From: Halichondria panicea
Taxonomy: Eukaryota > Porifera > Demospongiae > Suberitida > Halichondriidae
Assembly (NCBI RefSeq): GCF_963675165.1
Contig: NC_087391.1
Coordinates: forward strand, 3,956,646 to 4,020,645
Reading direction: 5' to 3'
Length of the DNA: 64,000 nt
Shown here: positions 17,237 to 64,000 of the stretch, piece after piece
Numbering within the stretch: position 1 is the stretch's first letter
Layout: every line of letters starts with the position of its first letter
Position numbers and translations under genes: made by a program
The notes under the pieces: model-generated
The model's database searches: none
What the model was told of the DNA's origin: nothing
The model's input: only the letters and a program-made list of their open reading frames with translations

Positions 17237-17692
17237 CCTGCATTGCATGACCATAGATAGATAACACACACATTTAATATACACACGTACACAGGGTTGT
17301 TTGGTATGGTAATATGTCCAAATGAAGCACACCACGCTATAGTATGTTAATGTTGTGAGGCTATTATAAAACTAAAAGGCTTACTTGTTTATTCTCTTAT
17401 ACAATCCACTTGAAAGTTTGTCACTTCAAAAGGGCCGGCCAACACTAATCTGGTATTGGTCGACAATAATTACAGACTGGTATAGGTCGACAATTACAAA
17501 AGGCATAATTATCTGGTGTGTGTGGGGGGGGTCCATATAAGTAGCTATTCAAAATTTGACTCAAGATTGAAATCACATCCTCAAAATAATTATTTTGAGT
17601 AGATCTACATGTAAGAAATTTGTTTTAACATGTTTCAATAATGTAATTGTGATGATTGAAGAAGTCATTAATAATTAAAAAGTGGTGGGTTA
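17237..17692. promoter_or_regulatory. Intergenic gap between SPRTN stop and RALGAPB start
   Basis: Both neighbours run on the minus strand, so this 456-bp gap holds the SPRTN 3' end and the RALGAPB promoter and 5'UTR. AT-rich, with a G-run near 17526 and the imperfect repeat of TGGTATTGGTCGACA / TGGTATAGGTCGACA at about 17450-17495. No clear core element can be assigned. Confidence 0.4.
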
Positions 17693-19752
17693 TCACTCGT
17701 CGTCCCAGTCCTCTTCCTCTAAGCAGAATGCAACATGAGCGTTAATGATAACTGCTGGGATTGTGTTCATCCCACACACTGGGCACGTCTTAAACTCCAC
17801 CCCATCCACCACCACCACTTCATCGTCCAGCCCACCCTCAATCATTAGTTCATCAATCACAACTACTCCATTGCGATCGACAAACACCTCTTGGCTACTC
17901 TTATCATCACTTTGGACGACTGTTTTCGTTGTTTCAGTAGAGCTACTCTGAGAAGGCCCTGGTGAACGGTCATAAGTATCCTCACAAAGGTCAATGACTG
18001 TCGGTGTAGTAGTAGTAGTAGAATGGTCGAGTATTTTGCACTCTTCAGGTACTACTAGGGTCGGAGATGAACTTTGAGTTTTTTCTGGACCACCTTCTGA
18101 TATGGTCAGTTTACGTCTCTTGATAGGCCCTCCATACTGTCTGATATCCCTAGGAGAACCGTGTGATAAAAGTCTCTTCTCTGTTTTCATTCCTCGATTT
18201 TCATTTTGTGCCAATCTTTTCTCGACAGCTGCCAGTATTTTACTCCTGCGCTCGTTAGTAGAAGAGTCTGACAGACTACTCTCTGAATCGTCCCCTACGT
18301 GTATCAAGTCTACTTTGTCTTTAGCATTTGCCTTTGGGAACATTTCATCAATCTTCTTATTTTTGTCGAGATCAATTATGGGAGGACTTTTTTGTTTTCC
18401 TCGTTTGTTCTTGCTCTTAGCTTCACCATTAAGTATATTTCCTTTGTCCTCTTTTACTTTTTTTTCTCCCTTTTTTTTGTAGCCTTCTGGTTCTTTAATC
18501 TTTGAGTAGGAGCCACCACACGTTTTCTGATGCTCCGCCCACCAGGGGTCTCGGCAGGAGGGTGCTCTGTTCATGGATCGCCTCACAATTCCAAAAAATG
18601 GTGCTCTTCTCTGACAAGGACCATCGCACTTCCACCAGTGTTTTCGGCACTCCCTCACCTGTGATAAGTCGGAAAATAATTGTTATTCAAGCTTGCTGGT
18701 TGAAAAACAGACTTTCCATGCAATATATAATTATATGCTAATTGCTTTTCGTCACAAACGTCATAATTTTCACGTTCTTAATCACAGAACGTGTGATGTT
18801 GATTTGCAAGTAAGTCTTACCTCATCATGGAAGCTGTGGTATATCTAGAAGGAAAACAATAACGAATTAAACTAGACACCCAAAATATGCACAAGAGCGT
18901 GTACAAGTACATGTAGGTACAGGTATGTAGGCTCCATAATTATGGGAACAACTCACTGTGATTTTGGCCCCAGTTAGATGATTTATCCGGTGCATGTGAG
19001 TCTGGAAGTTGGGTCCATGTCCATCATGATCCTACACAAATCAACACGGGTAAGTATAGACTGTATTATAGTATGAGTGCTTCAACTTACAGTGTTGTTA
19101 TGGGTTACAAAGAGGTAGGCATGGATCATCTCGTGCTGGGGGAGGAGCGAAACACAAGTAGCTATATTATAGTAGTACAGTAGAAGATAAACACTTCGTG
19201 TTGTAATAGAAAATGCCCAAAAGCTCGAGAATATTGAATTGGTGGTTGTGGCACTAACCAGTAGAGTCTGTACGAGGTCTCTCCTTGGTCTCATATTTAA
19301 GAGTTTCCCACTCAGTCTAATGGAACAGAAACCCTCTCGCCCCCTGTAAGAACACACTCCAGCACACCTGCATCGATGAAGGCGGTACCATAGATACTTA
19401 GTATTGTGGTAGACAACAAGGATTAGATCCTACAGATACGTACTTACAAAGTCATTCTGTTGCTCCAACTGACGGCTACCCCTCTAGATACAAGTGTCCC
19501 CTCAAAAAACATCAGATCAAACTGGATAAACAGGTTATGAATGTCAGGGTTGGGATCAGCCAGCTCCCAACTACTGTCGACAACAGTCTTAGGGTCATAC
19601 TCTTTCAGGCCCTGAGTGATTGGTGCTCTGTGATCACGGGATGAAGATGGTTGACACACTCTGTTGAGCTCCTCTGAAGTAGTTTCTCTGGAAAATTGCT
19701 CCTGGAGGGACAGAGCCAAAGCAAAATCTAAGTCTTGAGCATGTTCAGCCAT
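17693..19752 (-). CDS. SPRTN: SprT-like DNA-protein-crosslink protease (Spartan)
   Basis: Replication-coupled, DNA-dependent metalloprotease that cleaves crosslinked proteins in the nucleus (family knowledge). Six exons on the minus strand: 19448-19752, 19259-19367, 19091-19135, 18957-19031, 18821-18844, 17693-18658; phases fit and give 507 aa (human 489). Exon 3 carries the zinc motif HEMIH (His139, Glu140, His143), and GHG in exon 4 supplies the third ligand (His158). The SprT core continues through YHSFHDE, HWWKC and WWAEHQKTCGG. A long, lysine- and serine-rich, probably disordered region follows, ending in a UBZ-type ubiquitin-binding zinc finger (CPVC, then H and C near residues 478-503), as in human Spartan. 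I could not pick out a confident PCNA-binding box. The start is head-to-head with the START-domain gene, 198 bp apart. Confidence 0.95.
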
Positions 19753-23319: not shown

Positions 23320-26300
23320 ATGGCTACGTCTTCAGCTTATGGTGGACGCTCTGCTCAACAGAACAGCCTTAGAAACAGGCAGATAGGTATAAAACTCATC
23401 TGTTGTGTTAAAATCCCACATGGTTGAGCTTTACTTGTATGAAATGCATATATAATATGGAGCTAGATCGAGCTAAATAGAACTACCTAGCTAGCTATGG
23501 ATGAAGCTTTCCGATACAAACTATCTATATTAATAATCTACGGCTTGTCACAGCTGCCTTACAGAGGATGCTCAATCTGAACGAGCACACAGTCTCCAAG
23601 TCGACAGTTGCCGTGGAACCAGTGTGGAAGGTGAGGGTAGCACGTATATTATTTATTTAAAAATTCGTTTTCCCCCGCAGGTACTTATCTATGACAAGAA
23701 TGGATCTGACATCATCTCTCCTCTTCTCACTGTCAAAGAGCTACGTAGCTTAGGAGTCACTCTACATCTGTGAGCATTGCTTCCGGAAAATAATTATGTT
23801 GACGTTTGTGTACATGTACATGTATCCTTGGTACCTGATAGTGACTGTTCTTATTTCGACTGAGCCAAAACCCTTAATTAGGCACTCGCTAAGTCTTGTG
23901 CAAACGTCAGTGTTACAGCTCCCCTTATTTTATTCTCCTCCATTCAACCTTACTTTATCATCCCAATTAATTATGCGCTGGAACTTACTGTACTGTAGTA
24001 CTATGTAGACCAACACTTCATAGCCCACGCCCCCACACACACTAACACTTATAGCCCATGCCACCACACACACTAACACTTATAGCCCACGCCCCCACAC
24101 ACACTAACACCTATAGCCCACGCCCCCACACACTAACACTTATAGCCCACGCCCCCACACACACTAACACTTATAGCCCACGCCCCCACACACACTAACA
24201 CTTATAGCCCACGCCCCCACACACACTAACACCTATAGCCCACGCCCCCACACACACTAACACTTATAGCCCACGTCCCCACACACACTAACACTTATAG
24301 CCCACGCCCCCACCTCAACTCCCCTCATTTTATTCTCCTCCATTCATCCTTAACTTTATCGTAACTATGCACTAGAACTTACTTTACATACTATGTACCA
24401 ACACTTCATAGCCCACACACACACACACACAGACACACATTTGCACCCCCCCACCACACACACACACACACTAACACTTACAGCCCACGCCTCCACCCAC
24501 CCCGCTACACACACACACACATTTGCACCCCCCCACCATACACACTAACACTTATAGTCCACTCCTCCACCCACCCCGCTACACACACACACACATTTGC
24601 ACACACCCCACAGACTCATTGACTCCCCCCGTGAGCAGATCAGAGACGCTGTGGCAGTGTACTTTGTCCTCCCAAATCGTGAGAACATAGCCAAGATCTG
24701 TCAGGACTGCAAGGCCCAGCTCTATGACAACTATTACTTTAACTTCATCACCCCCATCTCACGCTCCCTCCTGGAGGACCTGGCCAAGGCTGCTGTTGAG
24801 AGCAACTGTGTGGCACAAATATCCAAGGTATACTGCTGGGTATGTAGGAGGGGGGGGGGAGGGGGCACTAAGACTGTGTGGTATAGATATCCAAGGTTTA
24901 CTGCTGGGTATGTAGGAGGGGGGGGGAGGGGGCACTAAGACTAGGTATACTGCTGGGTATGTAGGAGGGGGGGGGGAGGGGGCACTAAGACTGTGTGGTA
25001 TAGATATCTAAGGTATACTGCTGGGTATGTAGGAGGGGGGGGAGGGGGCACTAAGACTGGTATACTGCTGGGAGTGTCCAGGGGGGGGCACTAAGACTGT
25101 GTAGTATAGATATCTAAGGTATACTGCTAACAGTGTCGGGGCGGGGGGGTCACTAATATCAACTGTGTGGCACAGATATCCAAGGTATACTGCTGAGTAG
25201 GTAGTAGGGGGGGGAGGGGGCACTAAGACTGTGTGGTATAGATATCTAAGGTACACTGCTGGGTATGTAGGAGGGGGGGGGGGAGGGGGCACTAAGACTG
25301 TGTAGTACAAATATCCAAGGTATACTGCTGGGTATGTAGGATAGGGGGGCACTAAGACTGTGTAGTACAGATATCTAAGGTACACTGCTAACAGTGTCGG
25401 GGGGGGGGAGGGGGTCACTAATAGCAACTGTGTAATGCAAATATCCAAGTATACTTAGCTGGGTGTGTAGGGGGGAGGAGTGCTCTTACTGCGTAGCACA
25501 GATATCTAAACTATACTGCTGCTGAGTGTGTTATAGAGGGGAGGGGGGACTAACTGGGAGTGAGAATCAGTATTCTAGGCTACAAAATTTCCCACGTTCA
25601 GTTGCAATATTCAATTCATTCCTCTGCTGTATTGGTAAGATTTATGATGCTGTTTCTCGTGTAGGTGTATGACCAGTACTTGAACTTTATATCTTTGGAG
25701 GAGGACCTGTTTGTCTCCCGACACCATGACACTAGAGAGCTCTCTTACTACGGTAAGTTAGTGCTCACACTGACTGTATGTAGCATGGCTGACCTGTACT
25801 GTGGGCCCAGTGTTTGGTAGACACAGTAAATGCTACATAAACTTGTGTCTCCAGAATGATACTTTAGAGTGCTTACAAGAGTGGTAAATACAAAGGAGGC
25901 TGGCTTTAAGTTACAACAAGAGTTTCAAGATGGTGGCTTGTTACATTACAAGACTTGGTTGTCGTAGTTTACAAGAGCCACAGGCAGAGTTTGTTAGCAC
26001 CAGTCCTACATGTGTATATAAGACCGTACGTGTAGACCTTGCTGTAGAATTTTACTAATGTGAACAGAAAGCAATCCAGGCCTGATTCGAGGCAAAGAAA
26101 GTACCACGTGATTCACATGTTACACACGTGCGTAACTTTGAGCTATCGGTATTAATCAGAGGAGTGTTACACTGTGCGTGTTTTGTGTACCCAAGAGGAA
26201 ATGATGATATTCTTTCCCTGTGCAGCTCTAAATCGTACTGATGCGCAGGACACTGACGTTCAGAGCATCTGTGACACACTCGTGGAGTCTCTCTTCTCCG

Positions 26301-50086: not shown

Positions 50087-50180
50087 GCCTCGATTCCAGG
50101 CCGAGTTGTTTCTAGCTAGGGCGACAACTTCGTTCTATTAAAAAAAAATCAGCCTGGGACCGAGGCTAATAGTATACATG
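50087..50180. mobile_element. Short palindrome with CCTCGATTCCAGGCCG arm
   Basis: GTATACTAGCCTCGATTCCA is inverted against GGGACCGAGGCTAATAGTATAC. A GGCCTGGAATCGAGGCTAAC stretch also occurs at about 6643-6662, so this belongs to a dispersed family. It lies just downstream of the A1 stop and is absent at the matching point of unit 2. Confidence 0.7.
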
Positions 50181-50207
50181 AGCAAAAACTACAATAGTTA
50201 CTCTATA

Positions 50208-51995
50208 CTAGTGCGTGTTTGTGTATTTGTGTGAGTCTTTGACATGATCGAGTAAGTCAGCCACTGCTTCAAATGCTAGCCTAGTTAGGGGTTCTTGTTT
50301 CCAGCAACCCAGCATGATGTCATAGAATGTCTCTGGGCAATTTTCAGGTCGAGGCATTAGGAGTCCTGTTTTTATTCTCTGTATGGCTGAATCGTTTGTA
50401 CTGTCTGAAAATGGCTCTTTGCCTGTTATAACTTCCCAAATTAACATTCCATACGACCATACATCTGATTTCAAGGATTGGTACTGTTCAATGAACGTTT
50501 CTGGAGCACACCATTTTATTGGGGCCCTAAAACCTTGAGTACTGACAGTTTGCTCATAATCATCAAGCTTTACCGCTGAACCGAAATCGCTCAGTTTGCA
50601 TGTGACATTTTCACCTACGAGTACATTAGTAGCTTGTATTTTTCTGTGCATACATAGTTTTTGCTGGAGATAGTCAAGCCCAAGTGCTACTTGCTTGCAT
50701 ATCAATACATGCTGGTGCAGTAAGAGAGGGTTTGTTCTCACGTAGTTTTGCAGATTTCCATTTGGTACCAGCTCCAAAATCATGCACACTGTTTCTTCTG
50801 TTACAAATAAATCGTACAGTTGAACAATATTTTCATGCTTAAGGTTCTTCAGAATATCTGCCTCTACCAAAATGTGTTTAGTAGAACCAGTTGACAAGTG
50901 TTCCTTTTTGATTACAACTTCCTTGTCGTTATATGTGCCTTTCCAAATTTCTCTTGTGCTTTTGCTATAAAGTATTGAAGTCAGTAATAGATTTGTATCT
51001 TGTTGAACAGGCACATCATCCAATTTTTTAGAGTTACTTTCCAGATTCTTTGATCTAGCCATGAAATTGTTTGTTATCTTCTCTAGTCGTTGTTCAATGA
51101 GTTTCTTGTAATCCTTAAAATGTTTTTCTGATTGATCCTTCAACTCTTGTATTATTCTATCTTTATTCTTGAGCTGATGTGTGTGCAACTCCCTTAATCT
51201 TTTAAAATTTATTTCTTGTTTTTTCACCAATTGTACAATTTCTTCATCTTTTTTCTCAATTTCTTCTGCAAACAATCTCGTTACAAGCGATAAGTGGGTC
51301 TGTGCATCTTCTTTTAAATGTTCAAGTAAGTTTCCTCGCTCTACTTGATTTGTACAGCCAGCACATTGGAAATCACACTCAACTACTACTTTTGGACATT
51401 CTGCAAAGTGTTGTTGCAAGTACATTTTTTTGATGTCACGCTCTCCACAGCTGTTGGGGCAATCAACGGGCAGCTGGGAACACTCGGATTTATGTTGTCC
51501 AGTGATCACCTCCTTTTTATCTTTCTCGTTGCAGTGAGGGCAGGTGACTAGTCGATATGGGCATAGAAGCTCCAAATGTTCTTCCACCTCATTTTTCTCC
51601 AGTTTTTCTCCGCATCCATTTACGCAGACGGTTCTAAGGTATTCACAATCTCCATTGGATGAGTCAAGATGAGCTCCTCGTGCTCTTAGCTCTCCCGTCC
51701 AAAGACAGCCTCGATTAGTAAACGGGCATTTCACATCAAGTTCGAGAATTTTCCCCCATTTTTGTTTGTCAAGTATAGCAGTGATATTATCCTGTTCACA
51801 TTTAGGGCACTCATACTCATTTCCATAAGATTTTTCTACGCAAGGTGCACAGAAATGATTTCCACAGCACTCGGTTAACATTGGCATTCTCATAACTTCC
51901 TTGCAGTATCCACAGATATACTCATTCTGTGGAGGATCTATGAAGTCCCATTTGTGGCGTAAGACGTCCCTGTTGTGCAGGTTTTTTACATCCAT
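50208..51995 (-). CDS. RING-TRAF zinc finger-tyrosine-kinase-like fusion, type A copy 1
   Basis: Single exon, 595 aa from the ATG that unit 2 shares (MDVKNLH). Residues 28-66 form a RING finger (CGYC, CCGNHFCAPC, CPKC), the E2-binding module of E3 ubiquitin ligases. Residues 90-230 hold TRAF-type zinc fingers (CPFTNRGCLW, CPHC, CPNSCG, CDFQCAGC). Residues 232-325 are charged and helical, a likely coiled coil. Residues 335-585 are a tyrosine-kinase-type domain: VVIK with Lys363, Glu378 on helix C, DFG at 470-472, PIKWCAPE and SDVWSYGMLIWEV. The catalytic loop reads HRKIQATN, so Asp of HRD is Lys452; the glycine loop is also poor. Phosphotransfer is therefore doubtful. No signal peptide or membrane segment. 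TRAFs normally end in a MATH domain; here a kinase fold replaces it. The role in ubiquitin-linked immune or stress signalling is inference. Confidence 0.92.
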   Translation of the reverse strand: MDVKNLHNRDVLRHKWDFIDPPQNEYICGYCKEVMRMPMLTECCGNHFCAPCVEKSYGNEYECPKCEQDNITAILDKQKWGKILELDVKCPFTNRGCLWTGELRARGAHLDSSNGDCEYLRTVCVNGCGEKLEKNEVEEHLELLCPYRLVTCPHCNEKDKKEVITGQHKSECSQLPVDCPNSCGERDIKKMYLQQHFAECPKVVVECDFQCAGCTNQVERGNLLEHLKEDAQTHLSLVTRLFAEEIEKKDEEIVQLVKKQEINFKRLRELHTHQLKNKDRIIQELKDQSEKHFKDYKKLIEQRLEKITNNFMARSKNLESNSKKLDDVPVQQDTNLLLTSILYSKSTREIWKGTYNDKEVVIKKEHLSTGSTKHILVEADILKNLKHENIVQLYDLFVTEETVCMILELVPNGNLQNYVRTNPLLLHQHVLICKQVALGLDYLQQKLCMHRKIQATNVLVGENVTCKLSDFGSAVKLDDYEQTVSTQGFRAPIKWCAPETFIEQYQSLKSDVWSYGMLIWEVITGKEPFSDSTNDSAIQRIKTGLLMPRPENCPETFYDIMLGCWKQEPLTRLAFEAVADLLDHVKDSHKYTNTH

Positions 51996-52671
51996 CTTCA
52001 ACAATCTATATAATTATGCTGCCTGTCTCTAATAATTATTATATTAAGTCGATGTTGATATAGGTGTATATGCATGGTCTGTTTGGTTTTACAGTTTATG
52101 TTTGTGTTTCTATATAGTGATTGCAAACTGTTAACTACAACATTTATTATGTTTCAATGTTGGTGTTTCCATAGTGATCGCAAACTGTCAACACCCTAAC
52201 ACAAGTTATATCCTGCATGCAGCTATTTTAATAGAGTTCAATGTTTGTGTTTCCACATGCAGTGATTGCAAGCTGTCACGATTACTGTATAGGTGGCAAA
52301 CTTTTAACTATAGGCCTTGGCGGATTTCACAGCACCGCCACGATTTTAGGTGCCTTTTGCTTTTGAGCATAGTCTGACTTTTATCAAATGAGAGCAAAAA
52401 AACACTGACACAGCCACATGAATCAAGGCTATAGGCTACATATAGTGCTGAAATTTGGTTCTACTGGCTTTGTGCAATTATGGCTTCCAGAATTCCTTTA
52501 ATTTGAGTGACTTTGTGACTCACTGCTGAATAACATAAACTTAGATCAACTTAGATACATTTGTGTATAATTTTCAGAATATTATTAATGAAAAAGCAAT
52601 TATAAATAGATGGATAAAAAAGGTGAATAGATGTAACTAAAAGTTGAGCAAAATCTTCCAAGGCTATAGAT
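51996..52671. promoter_or_regulatory. Intergenic region upstream of A1, downstream of B1
   Basis: 676 bp with three related segments of the type TGTTTCCATAGTGATCGCAA (about 52100, 52160 and 52250), a short tandem motif that also appears upstream of A2. Holds the A1 promoter and the B1 3' end. No ORF of note. Confidence 0.45.
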
Positions 52672-54462
52672 CTACGCTTGTACCTGTTGTTCAGTCAGTT
52701 TTTGCATAGAGCTTTGTATGATATCAGAGAGTGCACTGAATGAAGGTCTAGAAGTGGGATCTCTGCTCATGCATTGAAGAATAACTTGGTGTATGTGTTC
52801 AGGACATTCCGGAGGACGGTCAATTGCTTGTCCTCTCGTGATGAATGTTTCTGCTTTTGAATTCGACATTTTCACAACTTTTTTTGTGATGATTTCGTAT
52901 TGCACAATTCCAAACGACCATACATCTGATTTGGTGGTACATTTACTCTCGATAAGAACTTCAGGTGCAGACCATTTGACAGGTGATCTCTCTCCTTGTG
53001 GGACTCTATATTCCGATTCACCTTGCTTCAATATTTTTGTTAATGAGAAGCTTCCTATTTTGAACTGTAGTGTGTTTGAAACTAAAACAGCACGAGATGT
53101 GATCCCCCTGTGTATGCAATTCAATCTCTCAAGATAAGACATTCCAGTGGCCACTTGTAGAATAATGTCAACCTGTCGTTTTTGAGTTAAAGCTTTGCCA
53201 TTGCTTTTGAGGTAGTTAGCGAGATTTCCATGCATCATGTACTCAGTGACGATCAGATAAGGTTCTTTCTTTGTGCATACTCCACATAATTGGATAATAT
53301 TTATGTGATCAAAATCTCTTAGCAAAGAAGCTTCCCCAAGAAATTTGGATGAAGTCATTGATCCTACTTTGTGCATTTTAATAGCAATTTGATATTTTCC
53401 GTACTGTTGTCCTTTCCATATCTCATTGAATTGACCTGACACTAGTTTTGAATCGAGTTGAACGGTGTCGGGATCAAGCTCCCAAAACAGACCAGGAAAT
53501 TTTGCAAATGTTTTTTTTACTGTATCTTCTCTGTATTGAAAAAATATGTTTAGCATGTCTTCTGTTTTGTTAATTGTGTCGCTAATCTCTTCTTTATAAA
53601 AGTCAATGCTTTTGATTTGTTCAGGATTTTTCTTTATCATTTTATTATCTCCTGTATCCTGTGTTGCTTTCAGCTGCTGCATAAATTTTGTGTCACTAAT
53701 TTTTTCATAGTCCTCGAACTTAAAACGACTCAGCATTCGTTTCTCCTGTATGAATCTCGAAACAAGATGAGCGTGTTTTTGAATACTCTTTTGGCGATGG
53801 TCGAGTATTTGCTTTCGTTTCAGAACCACATCACATCCAGCATATTTAAATTCACACCGAGTAATATATTCAGAGCATATGCTCATATGTTCATCAAAAT
53901 ATTCAAATTTGAAGCACTCTCCACAGCCATTGGGGCAAGCAACATTGCGATTGGGGCACATACAGTTATGCCAACCATCGTATTCACCACAGAGCTGGCA
54001 TTTCTCGGCAATGTTATTGTCCACCCTTTCTTCACCGCACTCAACGTGTGTGTGCACACAATCACCAATCAGGTGATCGTGGCAATTTTTGATATCTCCC
54101 GTCCACTGGCACCCCTTCACATGCATTGGGCATATCACTTTGAGGTCAAGAATTTTTTTCCATTTCGGTCTATCAAGAATGCATGCTACAGATGTCTGCT
54201 CACATGCAGGACATGTCAAGAGCTTGTTATTTTGAATATTTGGCTCTGCACATACTTTACAAAGGTGTGCTCCACAACATTCTATTAGCATCGGTTCTTT
54301 AAGTATCTTCTTACATTGCGAGCAGAAGTTATCTTCTGAAGGGCTTTCCACAAAAAGCAGTTGACATTCATGGATATCAAAGTGTTTGACTGAATCTATA
54401 TCTGTCATGCTGATATTTATACTACAGTTACTTCGAATTAATGTGCCTTGATCAACTAACAT
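52672..54462 (-). CDS. RING-TRAF zinc finger-pseudokinase fusion, type B copy 1
   Basis: Single exon of 596 aa; an alternative start is Met19 (MTDIDSV), and nothing decides between them. Residues 47-87 form a RING finger (CSQC, CCGAHLCKVC, CPAC). Residues 111-225 are TRAF-type zinc fingers (CPMHVKGCQW, CQLC, CPNGCG, CEFKYAGC). A helical linker leads to a tyrosine-kinase-type fold at 337-590: GQFNEIWKG, IAIK with Lys362, Glu377, PVKWSAPEVLIESK, SDVWSFGIVQYEII, RPSF. Catalytic residues are lost more thoroughly than in type A: HRGITSRAVL replaces HRDLAARN, removing both Asp and Asn, and the DFG position reads SFS. I call it a pseudokinase. It is clearly paralogous to type A in domain order but too diverged to be part of the recent duplication. 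Stop lies 676 bp upstream of A1. Confidence 0.92.
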   Translation of the reverse strand: MLVDQGTLIRSNCSINISMTDIDSVKHFDIHECQLLFVESPSEDNFCSQCKKILKEPMLIECCGAHLCKVCAEPNIQNNKLLTCPACEQTSVACILDRPKWKKILDLKVICPMHVKGCQWTGDIKNCHDHLIGDCVHTHVECGEERVDNNIAEKCQLCGEYDGWHNCMCPNRNVACPNGCGECFKFEYFDEHMSICSEYITRCEFKYAGCDVVLKRKQILDHRQKSIQKHAHLVSRFIQEKRMLSRFKFEDYEKISDTKFMQQLKATQDTGDNKMIKKNPEQIKSIDFYKEEISDTINKTEDMLNIFFQYREDTVKKTFAKFPGLFWELDPDTVQLDSKLVSGQFNEIWKGQQYGKYQIAIKMHKVGSMTSSKFLGEASLLRDFDHINIIQLCGVCTKKEPYLIVTEYMMHGNLANYLKSNGKALTQKRQVDIILQVATGMSYLERLNCIHRGITSRAVLVSNTLQFKIGSFSLTKILKQGESEYRVPQGERSPVKWSAPEVLIESKCTTKSDVWSFGIVQYEIITKKVVKMSNSKAETFITRGQAIDRPPECPEHIHQVILQCMSRDPTSRPSFSALSDIIQSSMQKLTEQQVQA

Positions 54463-54689
54463 GCTTCAGCTAATATGTGCATCTACTATTTATTGTTAAT
54501 CAATACTGAAAGTAAAACTGAAGCTATGTATACACTAGATTTTACATGCACTTGAACTCTATTGTAAACATTGACAGATCAGTGTAATACTGCAGTTTTA
54601 TAACAATTGTCAAAAAACTAAACACGATCTACACATGTGCAGGAATGAGTGCACAACATTATTGGAAAAAGAATCACTGTAAGAAACGT

Positions 54690-54806
54690 AAACATCCTGC
54701 TAATTTACTAATTACATCCTGCTAATTTACTAATAACATCCTGCTAATTTACTAATAACATCCTGCTAATTTACTAATAACATCCTGCTAATTTACTAAT
54801 TTACAT
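54690..54806. repeat. 22-bp tandem repeat, five copies
   Basis: Five copies of CATCCTGCTAATTTACTAAT plus AA, about 230 bp upstream of the B1 start codon. The same array with the same copy number is at 62654-62770. Confidence 0.93.
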
Positions 54807-54857
54807 CCACTAGATACCAGTTTTAGCAGATCCTTTAGTTCTCTGCATGTCTATCGC

Positions 54858-55036
54858 CTACACAAATCTGACCGTTCCTCTAGTCTCGGATTGTTCGCTT
54901 CTCTTTCCTTTTTGTGTGCCAGGCTCTTGGTCTTTATTTGGTTTGGGTGGGGAATCTGTCTTCCGACGTTTGTCCATTCTTCGTTTAAGTTTCATGCCAA
55001 TTCCTTTCTGAGTTCTATCACTTGTTGTAAATGTGA
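54858..55036 (-). CDS. Doubtful terminal exon, basic tail
   Basis: A minus-strand frame preceded by a good acceptor (TTTTTCTTTTGCAG) codes about 58 residues ending in a stop, rich in Lys/Arg/Ser (KLKRRMDKRRKTD, KGKRSEQSETR). The frame stays open upstream to 55478, but that part covers a palindrome and microsatellite and looks non-coding. If real, it is the last exon of a gene whose other exons I cannot find; the copy at 62822-63000 is identical. A nuclear role suggested by the basic content is speculation. Confidence 0.25.
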
Positions 55037-55279
55037 CTGCAAAAGAAAAATACAACACAGATCTGCATAACACAAGGAAAACAGCGATTATAGAGAACCT
55101 TAACCCCTCCCCCCCCCAACACATGCACTGTTGTGTTGTTGTTGGTAGATTAATTGCTGTGATTTGTGTTATAATAATAATAATAATATCATCTAAGTGA
55201 TTTGTTGCGTCAGAAACAAAGTATATACTTGCTATAAGAATCTTCATTTGCATGATAATATAATGCATGAAGGAGCTAT

Positions 55280-55300
55280 CCCTAACCCTAACCCTAACCC
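55280..55300. repeat. Interstitial telomere-like tract
   Basis: CCCTAACCCTAACCCTAACCC, three and a half copies of the animal telomere hexamer, far from any visible chromosome end. Present in the same place in unit 2 (63244-63264). Confidence 0.9.
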
Positions 55301-55302
55301 AT

Positions 55303-55520
55303 TTATAAAGCGTGTATATTTCGAGGGTATAAATGTTTGCGGTTTTTGCTATTAAACATGTACCGCGAACATTTATATATACCCACGAATTTAATATCGC
55401 ATCAATGCATGCTGCAGAAAGGCTGCATGCTATTATGCGAAAATTAAAATAATCCGCAAAAACCTTTTTAACGGTCATTCCGCGAAAGTTTATATATACC
55501 GTCGGAATATACCTGCTATA
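55303..55520. mobile_element. Palindromic element between telomere tract and poly-T
   Basis: ATTTCGAGGGTATAAATGTT and AACATTTATATATACCCACGA are inverted, and the end reads TATACCGTCGGAATATACCTGCTA. Related to 32500-32620. The unit 2 copy differs at a single base here (GTCGGAATA against GTCGAAATA). Confidence 0.6.
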
Positions 55521-56224
55521 TTAAAATTATATATATACGGTATATAGATAGCACTTGTGTGTATGCGTTGTGGGTGTGTCGTATACTGCATGATGTGTCT
55601 TGCAGCCTTTGTTTGTTTGTTTTTTTGCAGTGCTGGACCTTAACTCTAGTTCATGGTGTTTATGATGAATGAATCAAAATGAGTAGATATATAGTGATAC
55701 TGCATGTTTGACTCATGTTACGTTTTTTTTTTCTTTTTTGGGTCGCATATAATTATGTGTCTGCAAGCATTACAAAGGACTTCAAGTGGATTGACTGTTA
55801 GTTTATGCAATGACCACTGTAATTGCATTAACAAAGGAAACACAATGTACAGTGTGTGTTATAGTCATGTTTCAACTTCAGTCAACCAACCTAATCCAAT
55901 TGCAGCTGCACTGTACCAGTAACCACACAACTAGCATTGTAGACCAATAATATACGACTATATGATATGTGTATTTTGCCTACGCTTCACTTTCCCTTTC
56001 TCGTTTCTACATGCAGGATGGCACTTTTATGGACCAGTTCACCATCATCAAACACTATATACCTGGACCCTACAATATGACTTTATAATTCATCGAATCG
56101 ATCTCTGTTCATCTCTTCGATTTTGCATATTAAAAAAAAAATTATATATACATGTATGATGATGACAATCAGCAAAATAAAAATTATAATGGACAAGTTT
56201 ATAATTATTGTTGAAGTTTGTTCA

Positions 56225-56726
56225 CTAACTAGTATAAGTGTTAATAAATGTCCTCTCGATATTGTTGGCTAGGGCCCCTCCCTCCACCCCATGGCCCCTC
56301 AAAGCCTCCACCATGTCTGACCAGCTCGGAGATCCTTTCTTGAACCATGCCTCCAGCATTGCAACAAAACACTTCTCTGTGTTATTGTAGTTAGTCTCTC
56401 TGATACTCTGCATAAAAAGCGAGTATATTATAGAAGATTATAGGATAGATTAGAGCGATTATCTATAATTAATATTTATAATGACTGCATGCTATAGGTT
56501 ACCCCCCCCCCCCCCCCCCCCGATCAATTCACCTAACACATTCTATAACAAACTAATTTGGATATACTACTTCACACAACCCAAGCATGCATGCAATACT
56601 TACAATCAATAGTTCCACTGTCCACATCCAAGTTAATGGCCAGGTGGTACCACTTTGCACGAGCATCCCAAGTAGCATCTTTGACAGTCTTGAGAGTTAT
56701 GTCACCACCTGTAGCTGTGGCCTCAT
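56225..56726 (-). CDS. Death-domain protein, partial, two visible exons
   Basis: Exon 56604-56726 codes EATATGGDITLKTVKDATWD then ARAKWYHLAINLDVDSGTID, the first helices of a Death domain (KWY, L.V, ID). Exon 56225-56410 codes SIRETNYNNTEKCFVAMLEA, then WFKKG, SWSDMVEALRG, LANNIER and a stop: the last helices. Together they make one Death domain of about 95 residues, the homotypic adaptor fold of TNF, IL-1/Toll and apoptosis pathways. The visible donor (phase 1) and acceptor (phase 0) do not join in frame without a stop, so a micro-exon, a different splice or a break is possible. Upstream exons are not seen. It is on the same strand as the TRAF-kinase genes and 1.8 kb upstream of B1. Confidence 0.6.
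56502..56521. repeat. Poly-C tract
   Basis: Twenty consecutive C in the intron of the Death-domain gene. Such a run is prone to length error in sequencing. Confidence 0.95.
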
Positions 56727-58158
56727 CTGGACAAAGGGTGGACGTGATTTGGTAACGAAAACAAGTAGCAAAATGTAACAGCCAGAACATGTAAGGAATA
56801 CTTATACAGTGTACAGTTGTCAAAACAAAGGTATGACGTACATACATATATCTTGTAAATAATTAAGTAAAAATAGGCACATTAATTTAGGAGTATGCAG
56901 AGCATGTTTAGGGCGAGCGAGCAATTTTTTATTTGTTGTACAGTGATTAGCCTAATCATTGTACCTATACAATGTCGTAATTTTAAGTAGTCTATATTGT
57001 TTATTTATTTATGAAATTAGTATTATTATTATTATTGTTTATCGTGATTGTGAATAACCGAGTAGTCTGATGTAGATACGACTTCGCTGCATGTGCCAGA
57101 TGTATACCCGTGACAATTATTCTGAGTGCATGGTGTAGGGTTGTTGTGGTCTTTGACTGTGCATGGTGTAACATCAAGTTGACTTAGAGTGAAACATAAT
57201 TATCTATGAGTGAAAGTTCAGCATGAAAGAGCTGGCTGTACAAACTAAGCAAGGAGATATTATAACTTTTTGCTGGACCCAAATTAGAACAAATTACAAA
57301 GGCTATACTGTCAGTGTAAACAATCCTAGTAAGCTACTCTGACCTGTTGTAAGCGTGCCTGTGTGGCCTCAGAAGTTTTTATCTGAGCTGGTCTGACCTG
57401 CCAGGCCGTAGTGTCAGTACGTATATATATCAGTAGATCTATATATACAGACAGAATTGTGTGCCAATATTGAATACAGCGGCTATTCGAAGCTATGATT
57501 GAGACATTAAAGGAACAGGTAGAAAAGTGGTTTAACAGGTCAAGCTGTACGCAAGGCTATAGAGATCACATAACAGCACTAAATTCTTTAGAACACACCT
57601 ATAGCCAAAATTGCGTATTTTAATGCTGGTGCACTCGGATGGACTCAAGGTTAACGTGGTGCACTCGAGTTAAAACACTTATAATATTCGCTAGGTGCGT
57701 TCTAAATAATATAAATCCATGCTTCCTGAAAGATTTGGTCCGCCCAGATTTTGCCCTCGTTATAGGGGGTGCTGTTTTTGGAGCTAGCTTTGATGGCCTG
57801 TAAAATTTGAGCATATAATTACCTAGTTACCAAACTGAACAATGCATTCTGTAGATATTTCTATATATAGGTTTGATTTACTTGCTGGTCACAAAAGCTA
57901 TACACTGGCACTCCCCCCCCCCCCCCAAATGAGAAGCTAGCTTTGAGTTTTGAATTGATTACCAGTTATCTATAACTGAGCAAATTTAGACGAGTCACAC
58001 TAATTCATGACTGTGTCCATCCCTTCATTGTCGTAATACTATCCACTTTGCCCCTCCCCCCTCTAAATGCATCCCTACATGTTAAATAAGTATTCACATT
58101 TACTGTTTATATACTGTTTATATATAATTATAGCATACATAAGCAAAAACTACAATAG
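56727..58158. other. Unassigned region between Death-domain exon and A2
   Basis: AT-rich sequence with no defensible exon up to about 57528, where the left edge of duplication unit 2 begins (TTTAACAGGTCAAGCTGTAC). From there it aligns with 49548-50207 at lower identity than the rest of the unit. A second poly-C run lies at about 57912-57926. Missing upstream exons of the Death-domain gene may be here. Confidence 0.5.
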
Positions 58159-59943
58159 TTACTCTACTAGTGCGTATTTGTGTGGGTCTCTGACATGATC
58201 GAGTAAGTCAGCCACTGCTTCAAATGTTGGCCTTGTTAGGGGTTCTTGTTTCCAGCAACCCAGCATGATGTCATAGAATGTCTCTGGGCAATTTTCAGGT
58301 CGAGGCATCAGGAATCCTGTTTTTATTCTCTGTATGGCGAAATCGTTTGTACTGTCTGAAAATGGCTCTTTGCCTGTTATGACTTCCCAAATTAACATTC
58401 CGTATGACCATACATCTGATTTCAAGGATTGGTGCTGTTTAACAAATGTTTCTGGAGCACACCATTTTATTGGGGCCCTAAAACCTTGAGTACTGACAGT
58501 TTGCTCATAATCATCAAGTTTTACTGCTGAACCGAAATCGTTAAGCTTACACGTTACATTTTCACCTACGAGTACATTTGCAGCTCGTATTTTTCTATGG
58601 ATACATAGTTTTTGCTGGAGATAGTCAAGCCCAAGTGCTACTTGCTTGCATATCAATACATGCTGGTGCAGTAAGAGAGGGTTTGTTTTCACGTAGTTTT
58701 GCAGATTTCCATTTGGTACCAGCTCCAAAATCATGCATACTGTTTCTTCCGTTACAAATAAATTGTACAGTTGAACAATATTTTCATGCTTAAGGTTCTT
58801 CAGAATATCTGCCTCTACCAAAATGTGTTTAGTAGAACCAGTTGACAAGTGTTCCTTTTTAATTATAACTTCCTTGTCGTTATATGTGCCTTTCCAAATT
58901 TCTCTTGTGTTTTTGCTATGAAGTATTGAAGTCAGTAATAGATTTGTACCTTGTTGAACAGGCACATCATCCAATTTTTTAGAGTTACTTTCCAGATCCT
59001 TCAATCTAGCCATAAAATTGTTTGTTATCTTCTCTAGTCGTTCTTCAATGAGTTTCTTGTAATCCTTAAAATGTTTTTCTGATTGATCCTTCAACTCCTG
59101 TATTGTTCTATCTTTATTCTTGAGCTGATGTGTGTGCAACTCCCTTAATCTTTTTAAATTGAGTTCTTGTTTTTCCACCAATTGTGCAATTTCTTCATCT
59201 TTTTTCTCAATTTCTTCGGCAAACAATCTCGTTACAAGCGATAAGTGGGTCTGTGCATCTTCTTTTAAATGTTCAAGTAAGTTTCCTCGCTCTACTTGAT
59301 TTGTACAGCCAGCACATTGGAAATCACACTCAACTACTACTTTTGGACATTCTACAAAGTGTTGTTGCAAGTAATTTTTTTTAATGTCACGCTCTCCACA
59401 GCTGTTGGGGCAATCAACGGGCAGCTGAGGACATTCGGATTTATGTTGTCCAGTGATCACCTCCTTTTTAGCTTTCTCGTTGCAGTGAGGGCAGGTGAAT
59501 AGTCGATATGGGCATAGAAGCTCCAAATGTTCTTCCACCTCATTTTTCTCTAGTTTTTCTCCGCATCCATTTACGCAGACAGTTCTAAGGTATTCACAAT
59601 CTCCGTTGGAAGAGTCAAGATGAGCTCCTTGTGCTCCTAGCTCTCCCGTCCAAAGACAGCCTCGATTTGTAAATGGGCATTTCACATCAGGTTCAAGAAT
59701 TTTCCCCCATTTTTGTTTGTCAAGTATAGCAGTGATATTATTCTGTTCACATTTGGGGCACTCGTACTCATTTCCGTAAGATTTTTCTATGCAAGATGCA
59801 CAGAAATGATTTCCACAGCACTCGGTTAACATTGGCCTTCTCATAACTTCCTTGCAGTGTCCACAGATATACTCATTTTGTGGAGGATCTATGAAGTCCC
59901 ATCTGTGTCGTAAGATGTCTCTGTGCAGGTTTTTTATATCCAT
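58159..59943 (-). CDS. RING-TRAF zinc finger-tyrosine-kinase-like fusion, type A copy 2
   Basis: Single exon, 594 aa from MDIKNLH. An upstream in-frame ATG at 60000 would add 19 residues that unit 1 does not have, so I take the shared start. Domain order matches A1: RING (CGHC, CCGNHFCASC, CPKC), TRAF zinc fingers, helical linker, tyrosine-kinase-type fold. The catalytic loop is again HRK (HRKIRAANVL), so the substitution predates the duplication. Differences from A1 are scattered substitutions, including NDFG for SDFG, KAKKE for KDKKE and a RPTF motif where A1 has RLAF; A2 is closer to the kinase consensus at the last point. No frame break in either copy, which argues that both are under protein-level constraint. 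Confidence 0.92.
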   Translation of the reverse strand: MDIKNLHRDILRHRWDFIDPPQNEYICGHCKEVMRRPMLTECCGNHFCASCIEKSYGNEYECPKCEQNNITAILDKQKWGKILEPDVKCPFTNRGCLWTGELGAQGAHLDSSNGDCEYLRTVCVNGCGEKLEKNEVEEHLELLCPYRLFTCPHCNEKAKKEVITGQHKSECPQLPVDCPNSCGERDIKKNYLQQHFVECPKVVVECDFQCAGCTNQVERGNLLEHLKEDAQTHLSLVTRLFAEEIEKKDEEIAQLVEKQELNLKRLRELHTHQLKNKDRTIQELKDQSEKHFKDYKKLIEERLEKITNNFMARLKDLESNSKKLDDVPVQQGTNLLLTSILHSKNTREIWKGTYNDKEVIIKKEHLSTGSTKHILVEADILKNLKHENIVQLYNLFVTEETVCMILELVPNGNLQNYVKTNPLLLHQHVLICKQVALGLDYLQQKLCIHRKIRAANVLVGENVTCKLNDFGSAVKLDDYEQTVSTQGFRAPIKWCAPETFVKQHQSLKSDVWSYGMLIWEVITGKEPFSDSTNDFAIQRIKTGFLMPRPENCPETFYDIMLGCWKQEPLTRPTFEAVADLLDHVRDPHKYALVE

Positions 59944-60670
59944 TTTGAACGGTCTATTACACTGAAGGCAGATCGAACTCTTTATAAGTATTATATACAT
60001 GCATGCTTGCCTGTCTCTAATATTATTTAAGTCGATATTGATATAGGTGTATGGTCTGTTTGGTTTTACAGTTTATGTTTTTGTGTAATTGTGTTTCCAT
60101 AGTGATAGAAAACTGTCAACTCGTGACAACATTTATTTATGTTTCAATGTTGGTGTTTCCATAGTGATCACAAACTGTCAACACCCTATATCATGCAGCT
60201 ATTTATTATTACTAGATAGGGTTTCAATGTTTGTGCTTCCACAGTGATTGCAGGCTGTCACAATTGCTTAATATCACTTTCAACTAACTTAGCGGATTTC
60301 ACTATAGCACTGTCCGCCACAATTTAGATGCCTTTTGCTTTTGAGCATAGTCCGACTTTTATCAAATAAGAGTTAGAGAGCAAAAAACACTGTCACAGCC
60401 ACACGAATCAAAGGCTAGGCTACATAGTGTTGAAAGTTAGTTCTACTGGCTTTATGCAATTATGGCTTCCAGAATTCCTTTAATTTGAGTAACTTTGACT
60501 CACTGCAGAATAATAATAATTTTGTACATAAATTATATAACATAAACTTAGATACGTTCGTGTATAATTCAGAAAACTAGATAGAAAAAGATGGGTGAAT
60601 AGATGTAACTAAAAAATGTAAATTTCAGCAAAATCTGCTAGGCCTATTATAGATCTACGCTTGTGCCTGT
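59944..60670. promoter_or_regulatory. Intergenic region upstream of A2
   Basis: Matches 51996-52671 with several indels. The repeated TTTCCATAGTGAT motif upstream of the A gene is conserved between units. Confidence 0.45.
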
Positions 60671-62428
60671 TCAGTTAGTTCTTGCAAAGAGCTTTGTATG
60701 CATGATACCAGAGAGTACACTGAATGAAGGTCTAGAAGTGGGATCTCTGCTCATGCATTGAAGAATAACTTGGTGTATGTGTTCAGGACATTCCAGAGGA
60801 CGGTCAAGTTCTGGTCCTCTCGTGATGAATGTTTCTGCTTTCGAATTTGACATTTTCACTACTCTTTTTGTGATGATTTCGTATTGCACAATTCCAAACG
60901 ACCATACATCTGATTTGGTGGTACATTTACTCTCGATAAGAACTTCAGGTGCAGACCATTTGACAGGTGATCTCTCTCCTTGTGGGACTTTATATTCCGT
61001 TTCACCTTGCTTCAATATTTTTGCTAATGAGAAGCTTCCTATTTTGAACTGTAGTGTGTTTGAAACTAAAACAGCATGAGATGTGATTCCCCTGTGTATG
61101 CAATTCAATCTCTCAAGATAAGACATTCCAGAGGCCACTTGTCGAATAATGTCAACCTGTCGTTTTTGAGTTAAAGCTTTGCCATTGCTTTTGAGGTAGT
61201 TAGCGAGATTTCCGTGCATCATGTACTCAGTGACGATCAGATAAGGTTCTTTCTTTGTGCATACTCCACATAATTGGATAATATTTATGTGATCAAAATC
61301 TCTTAGCACAGAAGCTTCCCCAAGAAATTTGGATGAAGTCATTGATCCTACTTTGTGCATTTTAATAGCAATTTGATATTTTCCGTACTGTTGTCCTTTC
61401 CATATCTCATTGAATTGACCTGACACTAGTTTCGAATCGAGTTGAACGGTGTCGGGATCAAGCTCCCAAAACAGACCAGGTAATTTTGCCAATGTTTTTT
61501 TTACCGTATTTTCTCTGTATTGAAAACTTATGTTCAATATTTCTTCAGTTTTGTTAATTATGTCGCTAATCTCTTCTTTATAAAAGTCGATGCTTTTGCT
61601 CTGTTTAGCATTTTTCTTTATCATTTTTTTATCTCTCAGCTGCTGCATAAATTTTGTTTCATTAATTTTTTCGCAGTCCTCAAACTTAAAACGACTCAGC
61701 ATTCGTTTCCCATGTATGAATGTCAAAATAAGATGAGAGTGCTTTTGAATACTCTTTTGGCGATGGTCGAGTATTTGCTTTCGTTTCAGAACCACATCAC
61801 ATCCAGCATATTCAAATTCACACCGTGTAATACACTCAGAGCATATGCTCATATGTTCATCAAAATGTTCAAATTTGAAGCATTCTCCACAGCCATTGGG
61901 GCAAGTAAAATTGCGATTGGGGCACTTACGGTTGTGCCTACCATCGTATTCACCACAGAGCTGGCATTTCTCGGCAATGTTATTGTCCACCCTTTCTTCA
62001 CCGCACTCAACGTGTGTGTGTACACAATCACCAATCAGGTGATCGTGGCAATTTTTGATATCTCCCGTCCACTGGCACCCCTTCACATGCATTGGGCATA
62101 TCACTTTGAGGTCAAGAATTTTTTTCCATTTCGGTTTATCAAGAATGCATGCTACAGATGTCTGCTCACATGCAGGACATGTCAAGAGCTTGTTATTTTG
62201 AATATTTGGCTCTGCACATACTTTACAAAGGTGTGCTCCACAACATTCTGTTAGCATCGGTTCTTTAAGTATCTTCTTACATTGCGAGCAGAAGTTATCT
62301 TCTGAAGGGCTTTCCACAAAAAGCAGTTGACATTCATGGATATCAAAGTGTTTGACTGAATCTATATCTGTCATGCTGATATTTATACTACAGTTACTTC
62401 GAATTAATGTGCCTTGATCAACTAACAT
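60671..62428 (-). CDS. RING-TRAF zinc finger-pseudokinase fusion, type B copy 2
   Basis: Single exon of 585 aa, same possible starts as B1. The N-terminal half (RING and TRAF fingers) is almost identical to B1. The linker has lost a short segment (QLKATQDTGDNK in B1 against QLRDKK here), and the C-terminus diverges after PSFS: a small indel shifts the frame, so B1 ends in a helix with KLTEQQVQA and B2 in a different short tail. The kinase-like fold keeps Lys and helix-C Glu but has HRGITSHAVL in the catalytic loop and SFS in place of DFG, so the pseudokinase state is shared by both copies. Intact frame throughout. Confidence 0.92.
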   Translation of the reverse strand: MLVDQGTLIRSNCSINISMTDIDSVKHFDIHECQLLFVESPSEDNFCSQCKKILKEPMLTECCGAHLCKVCAEPNIQNNKLLTCPACEQTSVACILDKPKWKKILDLKVICPMHVKGCQWTGDIKNCHDHLIGDCVHTHVECGEERVDNNIAEKCQLCGEYDGRHNRKCPNRNFTCPNGCGECFKFEHFDEHMSICSECITRCEFEYAGCDVVLKRKQILDHRQKSIQKHSHLILTFIHGKRMLSRFKFEDCEKINETKFMQQLRDKKMIKKNAKQSKSIDFYKEEISDIINKTEEILNISFQYRENTVKKTLAKLPGLFWELDPDTVQLDSKLVSGQFNEIWKGQQYGKYQIAIKMHKVGSMTSSKFLGEASVLRDFDHINIIQLCGVCTKKEPYLIVTEYMMHGNLANYLKSNGKALTQKRQVDIIRQVASGMSYLERLNCIHRGITSHAVLVSNTLQFKIGSFSLAKILKQGETEYKVPQGERSPVKWSAPEVLIESKCTTKSDVWSFGIVQYEIITKRVVKMSNSKAETFITRGPELDRPLECPEHIHQVILQCMSRDPTSRPSFSVLSGIMHTKLFARTN

Positions 62429-62653
62429 GCTTCAGCTAATATGTGCATCTACTATTTATTGTTAATCAATACTGAAAGTAAAACTGAAGCTATGTATACA
62501 CTAGATTTTACATGCACTTGAACTCTATTGTAAACATTGACAGATCAGTGTAATACTGCAGTTTTATAACAATTGTCAAAACTAAACACGATCTACACAT
62601 GTGCAGGAATGAGTGCACAACATTATTGGAAAAAGAATCACTGTAAGAAACGT

Positions 62654-62770
62654 AAACATCCTGCTAATTTACTAATTACATCCTGCTAATTTACTAATAA
62701 CATCCTGCTAATTTACTAATAACATCCTGCTAATTTACTAATAACATCCTGCTAATTTACTAATTTACAT
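62654..62770. repeat. 22-bp tandem repeat, five copies (unit 2)
   Basis: Same array as 54690-54806, same number of copies. Confidence 0.93.
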
Positions 62771-62821
62771 CCACTAGATACCAGTTTTAGCAGATCCTTT
62801 AGTTCTCTGCATGTCTATCGC

Positions 62822-63000
62822 CTACACAAATCTGACCGTTCCTCTAGTCTCGGATTGTTCGCTTCTCTTTCCTTTTTGTGTGCCAGGCTCTTGGTCTTTA
62901 TTTGGTTTGGGTGGGGAATCTGTCTTCCGACGTTTGTCCATTCTTCGTTTAAGTTTCATGCCAATTCCTTTCTGAGTTCTATCACTTGTTGTAAATGTGA
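62822..63000 (-). CDS. Doubtful terminal exon, basic tail (unit 2)
   Basis: Exact counterpart of 54858-55036 with identical translation and the same acceptor. The identity reflects the recent state of the duplication and is not evidence for coding. Confidence 0.25.
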
Positions 63001-63243
63001 CTGCAAAAGAAAAATACAACACAGATCTGCATAACACAAGGAAAACAGCGATTATAGAGAACCTTAACCCCTCCCCCCCCCAACACATGCACTGTTGTGT
63101 TGTTGTTGGTAGATTAATTGCTGTGATTTGTGTTATAATAATAATAATAATATCATCTAAGTGATTTGTTGCGTCAGAAACAAAGTATATACTTGCTATA
63201 AGAATCTTCATTTGCATGATAATATAATGCATGAAGGAGCTAT

Positions 63244-63264
63244 CCCTAACCCTAACCCTAACCC
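63244..63264. repeat. Interstitial telomere-like tract (unit 2)
   Basis: CCCTAACCCTAACCCTAACCC, same length as in unit 1. Confidence 0.9.
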
Positions 63265-64000
63265 ATTTATAAAGCGTGTATATTTCGAGGGTATAAATGT
63301 TTGCGGTTTTTGCTATTAAACATGTACCGCGAACATTTATATATACCCACGAATTTAATATCGCATCAATGCATGCTGCAGAAAGGCTGCATGCTATTAT
63401 GCGAAAATTAAAATAATCCGCAAAAACCTTTTTAACGGTCATTCCGCGAAAGTTTATATATACCGTCGAAATATACCTGCTATATTAAAATTATATATAT
63501 ACGGTATATAGATAGCACTTGTGTGTATGCGTTGTGGGTGTGTCGTATACTGCATGATGTGTCTTGCAGCCTTTGTTTGTTTGTTTTTTTGCAGTGCTGG
63601 ACCTTAACTCTAGTTCATGGTGTTTATGATGAATGAATCAAAATGAGTAGATATATAGTGATACTGCATGTTTGACTCATGTTACGTTTTTTCTTTTTCT
63701 TTTTTGGGTCGCATATAATTATGTGTCTGCAAGCATTACAAAGGACTTCAAGTGGATTGACTGTTAGTTTATGCAATGACCACTGTAATTGCATTAACAA
63801 AGGAAACACAATGTACAGTGTGTGTTATAGTCATGTGTCAACCAACCTAATCCAATTGCAGCTGCACTGTACCAGTAACCACACAACTAGCATTGTAGAC
63901 CAATAATATACGACTATATGATATGTGTATTTTGCCTATCTTCACTTTCCCTTTCTCGTTTCTACATTCATGCAGGATGGCACTTTTATGGACCAGTTCA

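Follow-up and report, generated by a model that had tools for sequence, protein, structure and literature searches.

Sponge genes joining a TRAF-like RING and zinc-finger region to a predicted Src-like pseudokinase in place of MATH

The stretch of DNA analysed here (the window) comprises 64,000 nucleotides of chromosome C15 of the sponge Halichondria panicea (C15:3956646-4020645), within a searched genome of 131.5 Mb in 39 contigs. Positions 50208 to 62431 of its minus strand carry four single-exon, uninterrupted open reading frames, each encoding a RING, TRAF zinc fingers, a putatively helical linker and a tyrosine-kinase fold; a MATH domain is absent. The genes are of two types, A and B, that share about 34% identity with each other; A1 and A2 are 92% identical, and B1 and B2 90%. 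Their features are as follows.

50208-52013, minus strand: A1, with RING, TRAF zinc fingers, linker and predicted pseudokinase (601 codons; likely start ATG at 51995)
51798-51914, minus strand: A1 RING, pattern CGYC...CCGNHFC..C...CPKC, with Tyr and Lys at the TRAF6 Ile72 and Leu74 positions (Pfam below cut-off, Cys/His pattern, TRAF6 match)
51318-51494, minus strand: A1 zf-TRAF, best stretch (Pfam)
50256-50951, minus strand: A1 kinase fold, HRK for HRD (codon near 50640-50642) and loss of the glycine loop, with VAIK Lys, alpha-C Glu and DFG present (Pfam, structure-sequence matches, motif table)
52672-54465, minus strand: B1 (597 codons; likely start ATG at 54408)
54202-54324, minus strand: B1 RING-like Cys/His pattern (no Pfam match)
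53797-53970, minus strand: B1 zf-TRAF (Pfam)
52723-53460, minus strand: B1 kinase fold, HRG for HRD and SFS for DFG (Pfam, structure-sequence matches, motif table)
58159-60072, minus strand: A2 (637 codons; likely start ATG at 59943)
59749-59865, minus strand: A2 RING (Pfam below cut-off, Cys/His pattern)
59269-59445, minus strand: A2 zf-TRAF, best stretch (Pfam)
58207-58902, minus strand: A2 predicted pseudokinase, HRK (Pfam, motif table)
60671-62431, minus strand: B2 (586 codons; likely start ATG at 62374)
62168-62290, minus strand: B2 RING-like Cys/His pattern (no Pfam match)
61763-61936, minus strand: B2 zf-TRAF (Pfam)
60713-61444, minus strand: B2 predicted pseudokinase, HRG and SFS (Pfam, motif table)
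50169-64000, no strand assigned: two tandem A-B units of about 8 kb each, 93-94% alike, the second cut off by the window edge

A preliminary description of this DNA had proposed the order RING, TRAF zinc finger, kinase for four intact genes, and the domain searches agree with it, as the open reading frames do with its coordinates. The Pfam kinase model PF07714 matches all four window proteins (E 3e-64 to 1e-72), in which zf-TRAF (PF02176) also lies above its curated cut-off; both domains pass their cut-offs in all 15 fusion proteins scanned genome-wide (14 complete proteins and the truncated C11 B). The supposed absence of MATH likewise stands, as no MATH model was found at E 0.01 in these 15 proteins, and no SH2 or SH3 model was found in them either. 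The Pfam RING model appears in A1 and A2 only, below its cut-off (E about 1e-3), and the RINGs of B1 and B2 are visible solely as Cys/His patterns. In a phmmer comparison made for A1 only, residues 17-156 (140 residues) match the RING and first zinc fingers of the solved TRAF6 structure (3hcs_A, E 5.8e-10), and the A1 RING is thus supported as a fold.

Searches of the genome with the front half and with the kinase half revealed at least 17 fusion loci on four chromosomes (9 A and 8 B), a lower bound, as candidates were scored in part. Because the same domain order occurs at 17 loci on four chromosomes, a chance juxtaposition can be excluded. The nine A loci all have open frames; C15 carries four of them, C5 and C11 two each, and C3 one. 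C15 also carries four B loci, C5 has two, and C3 and C11 have one each. Three of these eight are apparently broken, namely the third unit of C15, the first pair of C5 and C11, where the match shifts frame or meets stops; these could instead reflect assembly errors or introns. Every B adjoins an A, with a gap of 45-658 bp between the open reading frames, the two lying on the same strand in five pairs (C15, C11) and divergently in three (C5 twice, C3). The C15 array consists of four units of about 8 kb, two of them beyond the window at C15:4022611-4034689, and A2 and A4 exhibit no synonymous differences at all. In the two A genes of C11 the front end is repeated, giving two RING patterns in one gene and three in the other.

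The front half is itself widespread: the genome search with it gave at least 163 matches. These RING-TRAF zinc-finger genes are mostly single-frame, lie mainly on C3 and C6, and include some with MATH. Among six non-kinase, non-macro paralogues scanned with Pfam, MATH is above cut-off in L027, L028, L029 and L034 and below it in L032 and L033; L030, L035 and L037 are labelled MATH in the front-half tree by likeness, L030 and L035-L038 being outside the Pfam scans. The same RING and TRAF zinc-finger front is joined to macro domains in four further genes (C2:1084513-1087731, C2:1090000-1092567, C2:1607538-1609199 and C2:1609284-1610762; L045-L047), and Macro is above the Pfam cut-off in both of those scanned.

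The two halves have evolved together. Among the 14 complete fusions, the front-half and kinase-half trees share 10 of 11 splits, a number reached by none of 5000 label permutations (maximum 5). The ratio of nonsynonymous to synonymous change (dN/dS), calculated by the simple Nei-Gojobori method with synonymous change saturated in far pairs, is 0.20-0.36 for the kinase half in seven of nine pairs, with 0.09 in one pair and 0.87 in B1-B2. For the RING-zinc-finger half, eight pairs gave a finite value: seven lie between 0.15 and 0.31, and B1-B2 stands at 0.54. Since both halves are constrained, the trees are congruent and the frames are open, two separate proteins are unlikely, and on the same grounds we infer a single mRNA running from RING to kinase.

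Examination of the catalytic residues of the kinase half shows that the HRD Asp is absent in all 15 fusions, its position being occupied by Lys, Arg or Asn in the nine A and by Gly, Arg or Ser in the six B; it is present in all nine non-fused tyrosine kinases compared. The motif table omits the broken C5 and C15 B loci, the latter not scored; the C5 piece carries HRC. The glycine loop is likewise eroded: the nine A proteins retain none of 27 glycine positions, and the six B proteins are reduced to the middle glycine. The DFG Asp and the catalytic-loop Asn are retained in seven of nine A and neither is found in B. The VAIK Lys, the alpha-C Glu, the His-Arg of HRD and the APE Glu are retained in all 15. 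Because the HRD Asp is lost throughout, the kinase half is, by its sequence, a pseudokinase, and the residue pattern fits a fold retained for binding after the loss of catalysis. The suggestion of the preliminary description that the fold serves as a partner-binding surface can be kept in this form: it may do so.

The RING half departs from TRAF6 at the positions that contact the ubiquitin-conjugating enzyme (E2). These were counted in 20 RING patterns from the 17 loci and in ten paralogues that have a matched RING and neither a kinase nor a macro domain (a set that leaves L029, which has no matched RING, outside). The TRAF6 Ile72 position holds Ile, Leu or Val in one of 20 fusion RINGs versus eight of ten paralogues, and the Leu74 position holds Leu in none of the 20 versus seven of ten; many of the fusion rows are near-copies, so the 20 RINGs do not represent 20 independent events. 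A study of TRAF RINGs reports that Ubc13 is not bound by TRAF6 carrying the two substitutions I72D/L74R (PMC5702613). The usual RING histidine is also missing in five fusion RINGs (both C5 A genes, the C3 A gene and one RING in each C11 A gene), which alone proves little, as two paralogues lack it too. None of the 15 fusions scanned has a Pfam RING model at cut-off, and the non-kinase paralogues scanned are likewise below. The claim of an E3 ubiquitin ligase front end is therefore doubtful: the RING and zinc fingers are TRAF6-like, with the Ile72 and Leu74 equivalents replaced in 19 and 20 of the 20 RINGs, respectively. With these E2-contact positions altered, the direct coupling of recognition to ubiquitination that had been envisaged would be possible solely through another E2 or through an E2-binding RING partner. 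The same study reports that one E2 site is enough for a TRAF dimer to be active and that the TRAF5 and TRAF6 RINGs heterodimerise; in its authors' view, transfer may still be regulated by TRAFs that lack E2 binding (PMC5702613).

The tyrosine-kinase type assigned earlier to the kinase half was borne out by PF07714 and by the kinase tree, and can be narrowed to Src-like. In the second kinase tree, which leaves out the long rows (TKL_C16, TRIMTK_C17 and A_C11x) and the truncated B_C11 (outside the first tree as well), the fusions form one clade (support 96/92) beside the four Src kinases of the genome (99/97), and groupings of A alone or B alone with Src are weakly rejected (p 0.038 and 0.028). 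With the long rows included, in the first tree, A, B and Src are each clades and there is no firm branching order for A, B, Src and receptor kinases. The grouping of the kinase half with Src in the second tree holds among the kinases compared, a set with no Tribbles sequence. Src, Lyn and Fyn are among the top solved relatives of the kinase halves (best 60 of 2570 and best 60 of 2094 matches), and a two-copy EGFR chain ranks first by summed score among the structure matches listed. Taken together, the sequence comparisons indicate that the kinase half is Src-derived. The front-half tree shows three clades: A, with support of 99/97, B, with 100/100, and the macro-bearing genes, with 95/95.

The four Src kinases (C2:7249317, 7251927, 7254955 and 7447212) are the closest non-fused kinases of the genome by similarity and by the tree. 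Unlike the fusions, which have lost these motifs save for DFG in part, they have an intact HRD, DFG and glycine loop; their open reading frames also include what we take to be an SH2 domain, whereas the fusions are without SH3-SH2. Clusters of receptor-type tyrosine kinases, many of them single-frame, occur elsewhere in the genome (C10:1701723-1940221).

Like members of the TRAF family (TRAF6, TRAF5, TRAF2), the fusion proteins begin with a RING, after which come TRAF zinc fingers in the register of TRAF6 and a putatively helical linker; unlike them, they have a kinase fold for MATH and replaced E2-contact positions. Since the RING and TRAF zinc fingers are present and MATH is not, we term them TRAF-like and not TRAFs. 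A non-MATH C-terminal domain is known from TRAF7, in which a RING and TRAF zinc finger are followed by WD40 repeats, as opposed to the kinase fold of the fusions. The pairing of Tribbles with COP1 is similar in that a pseudokinase docking platform stands beside a RING E3, but it involves two chains and another kinase family, whereas the fusions are one chain with a weak-looking RING. An E3-type domain and a kinase fold also occur in one protein in plant KEG, kinase-U-box proteins and animal MEKK1, which differ in their RING or U-box and kinase families, their active kinases and their lack of TRAF zinc fingers. The sponge genome itself has a second, separate join of an E3-type front to a kinase: a single-frame gene at C17:4784487-4786442 (L049:1988-3943, minus strand) encodes a TRIM-like protein with a RING, two B-boxes and a C-terminal Src-like kinase fold in which HRD is present and DFG is lost.

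No paper describing the RING-TRAF zinc finger-kinase order was found by title or opening of the abstract in the literature searched for it, and the main text of PMC8662651, in its available part, makes no mention of a RING or zinc finger. That a kinase has unfamiliar domain partners is in itself no novelty, since choanoflagellate tyrosine kinases are known for unusual ones (PMC3082566). Two scans of viral contigs (112 pattern stretches each) confirmed no relative, a result from a viral collection that says little on animals. A scan of prokaryotic contigs, which likewise says little on animals, gave one locus, L051 (Oceanospirillum), with 29% identity to query residues 427-529, in the kinase part.

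On balance, we lean towards a TRAF-type adaptor that is probably weak both as a kinase and as an E3 ligase and that docks partners through its Src-like pseudokinase. Each gene would produce one protein, presumably cytosolic, with a Src-derived kinase fold in MATH's place; this fold would not phosphorylate but would serve as a docking head. Through pairing of its RING or helices, the front half may associate with other members of the TRAF family, in the manner of TRAF5 with TRAF6, and its own E2-dependent ubiquitination would probably be slight. Such an adaptor could bring partners recognised by the Src-like surface into TRAF complexes, or exclude them, with A and B probably acting as two halves of one working set.

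Several observations weigh against this account. Front halves of A and B group with a support of 68/40, giving no resolved common origin; a single fusion event for the two types is thus supported in part, being favoured by the kinase tree and not by the front-half tree. The high kinase-half dN/dS of B1-B2, together with the three apparently broken B loci, suggests that B may be drifting, and the broken loci weaken an obligate A-B partnership. In the ten proteins examined, between 11 and 234 of 300 shuffles reached the heptad score of the linker region. Structure models of A1 and B1, predicted from an alignment of the four window proteins, have a mean predicted local distance difference test score (pLDDT) of 36.8 and 34.4, too low to interpret; helices appear in these low-confidence models. 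Lastly, a Tyr-x-x-hydrophobic C-terminus is found in eight of nine A proteins and in two of five complete B proteins; it could be a candidate docking site for SH2 or sorting proteins and, if used, would add a signalling role outside the account given here.

The main alternative is an active E3 with the pseudokinase as a substrate receptor in cis, in effect Tribbles plus COP1 in one chain, in which phospho-signalling proteins bound by the pseudokinase would be ubiquitinated by the RING with an E2 other than Ubc13. The 140-residue TRAF6 match and the constraint on the front half by dN/dS are in its favour, as is the use of Tribbles pseudokinases as a substrate platform for E3 ligases, described in PMC5382568. 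We nevertheless regard it as rather unlikely, given the replacement of both E2-contact positions in nearly all RINGs, the missing RING histidine in the C5 and C3 A genes, and the lack of a RING model at cut-off in any of the 15 proteins scanned (in the paralogues too). An active but atypical kinase, operating without the HRD Asp, would draw on the VAIK Lys, alpha-C Glu, catalytic-loop Asn and DFG Asp that occur together in seven of nine A, and some pseudokinases do have retained activity; the loss in A of the HRD Asp and of all loop glycines, and in B of the DFG Asp and Asn as well, makes it very improbable.

Another alternative, which we consider a distinctly long shot, is that of integrated decoys: tandem, shuffled TRAF fronts carrying host domains as bait (Src-like kinase, macro), whose binding by microbial effectors would feed TRAF signalling. 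It would account for one front half being joined to both kinase and macro domains, for the large paralogue set (at least 163 matches), for tandem arrays with recent copies such as the synonymously identical A2 and A4, and for a dead kinase with fold-forming residues retained; most pairs, however, show no signal of positive selection by dN/dS. In a wider and similarly speculative version, the decoy system would be genome-wide, with a TRAF front of well over a hundred paralogues set on Src-like pseudokinase, macro or MATH baits, and paired A-B TRAFs would turn microbial or cellular interference with Src into TRAF output. That the family is an artefact, either two genes read as one or dead copies, is hardly credible: the apparently broken B loci are in keeping with it, but 14 complete single frames over four chromosomes, congruent half-trees and constraint on both halves contradict it.

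The family is of interest as a case in which an animal genome has repeatedly swapped the receptor-binding end of a TRAF for another domain, and in which a predicted catalytically dead Src-type kinase is under constraint within a RING protein. If the docking role favoured above is correct, the adaptor would connect tyrosine-kinase signalling directly with TRAF signalling in an animal outside the well-studied ones, and would be a natural single-chain analogue of a pseudokinase working with an E3, as Tribbles does with COP1. The neighbouring A and B genes offer a ready system for asking whether two pseudokinases function as a set.

Elsewhere in the window, the minus-strand frames at 10458-11139 and 25011-25454 are rich in Pro and His and resemble tandem-repeat DNA rather than genes. 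Those at 15926-17371 and 17699-18682, also on the minus strand, match the N-terminal domain of RALGAPB and a Spartan-like zinc-binding domain, and represent ordinary animal genes.

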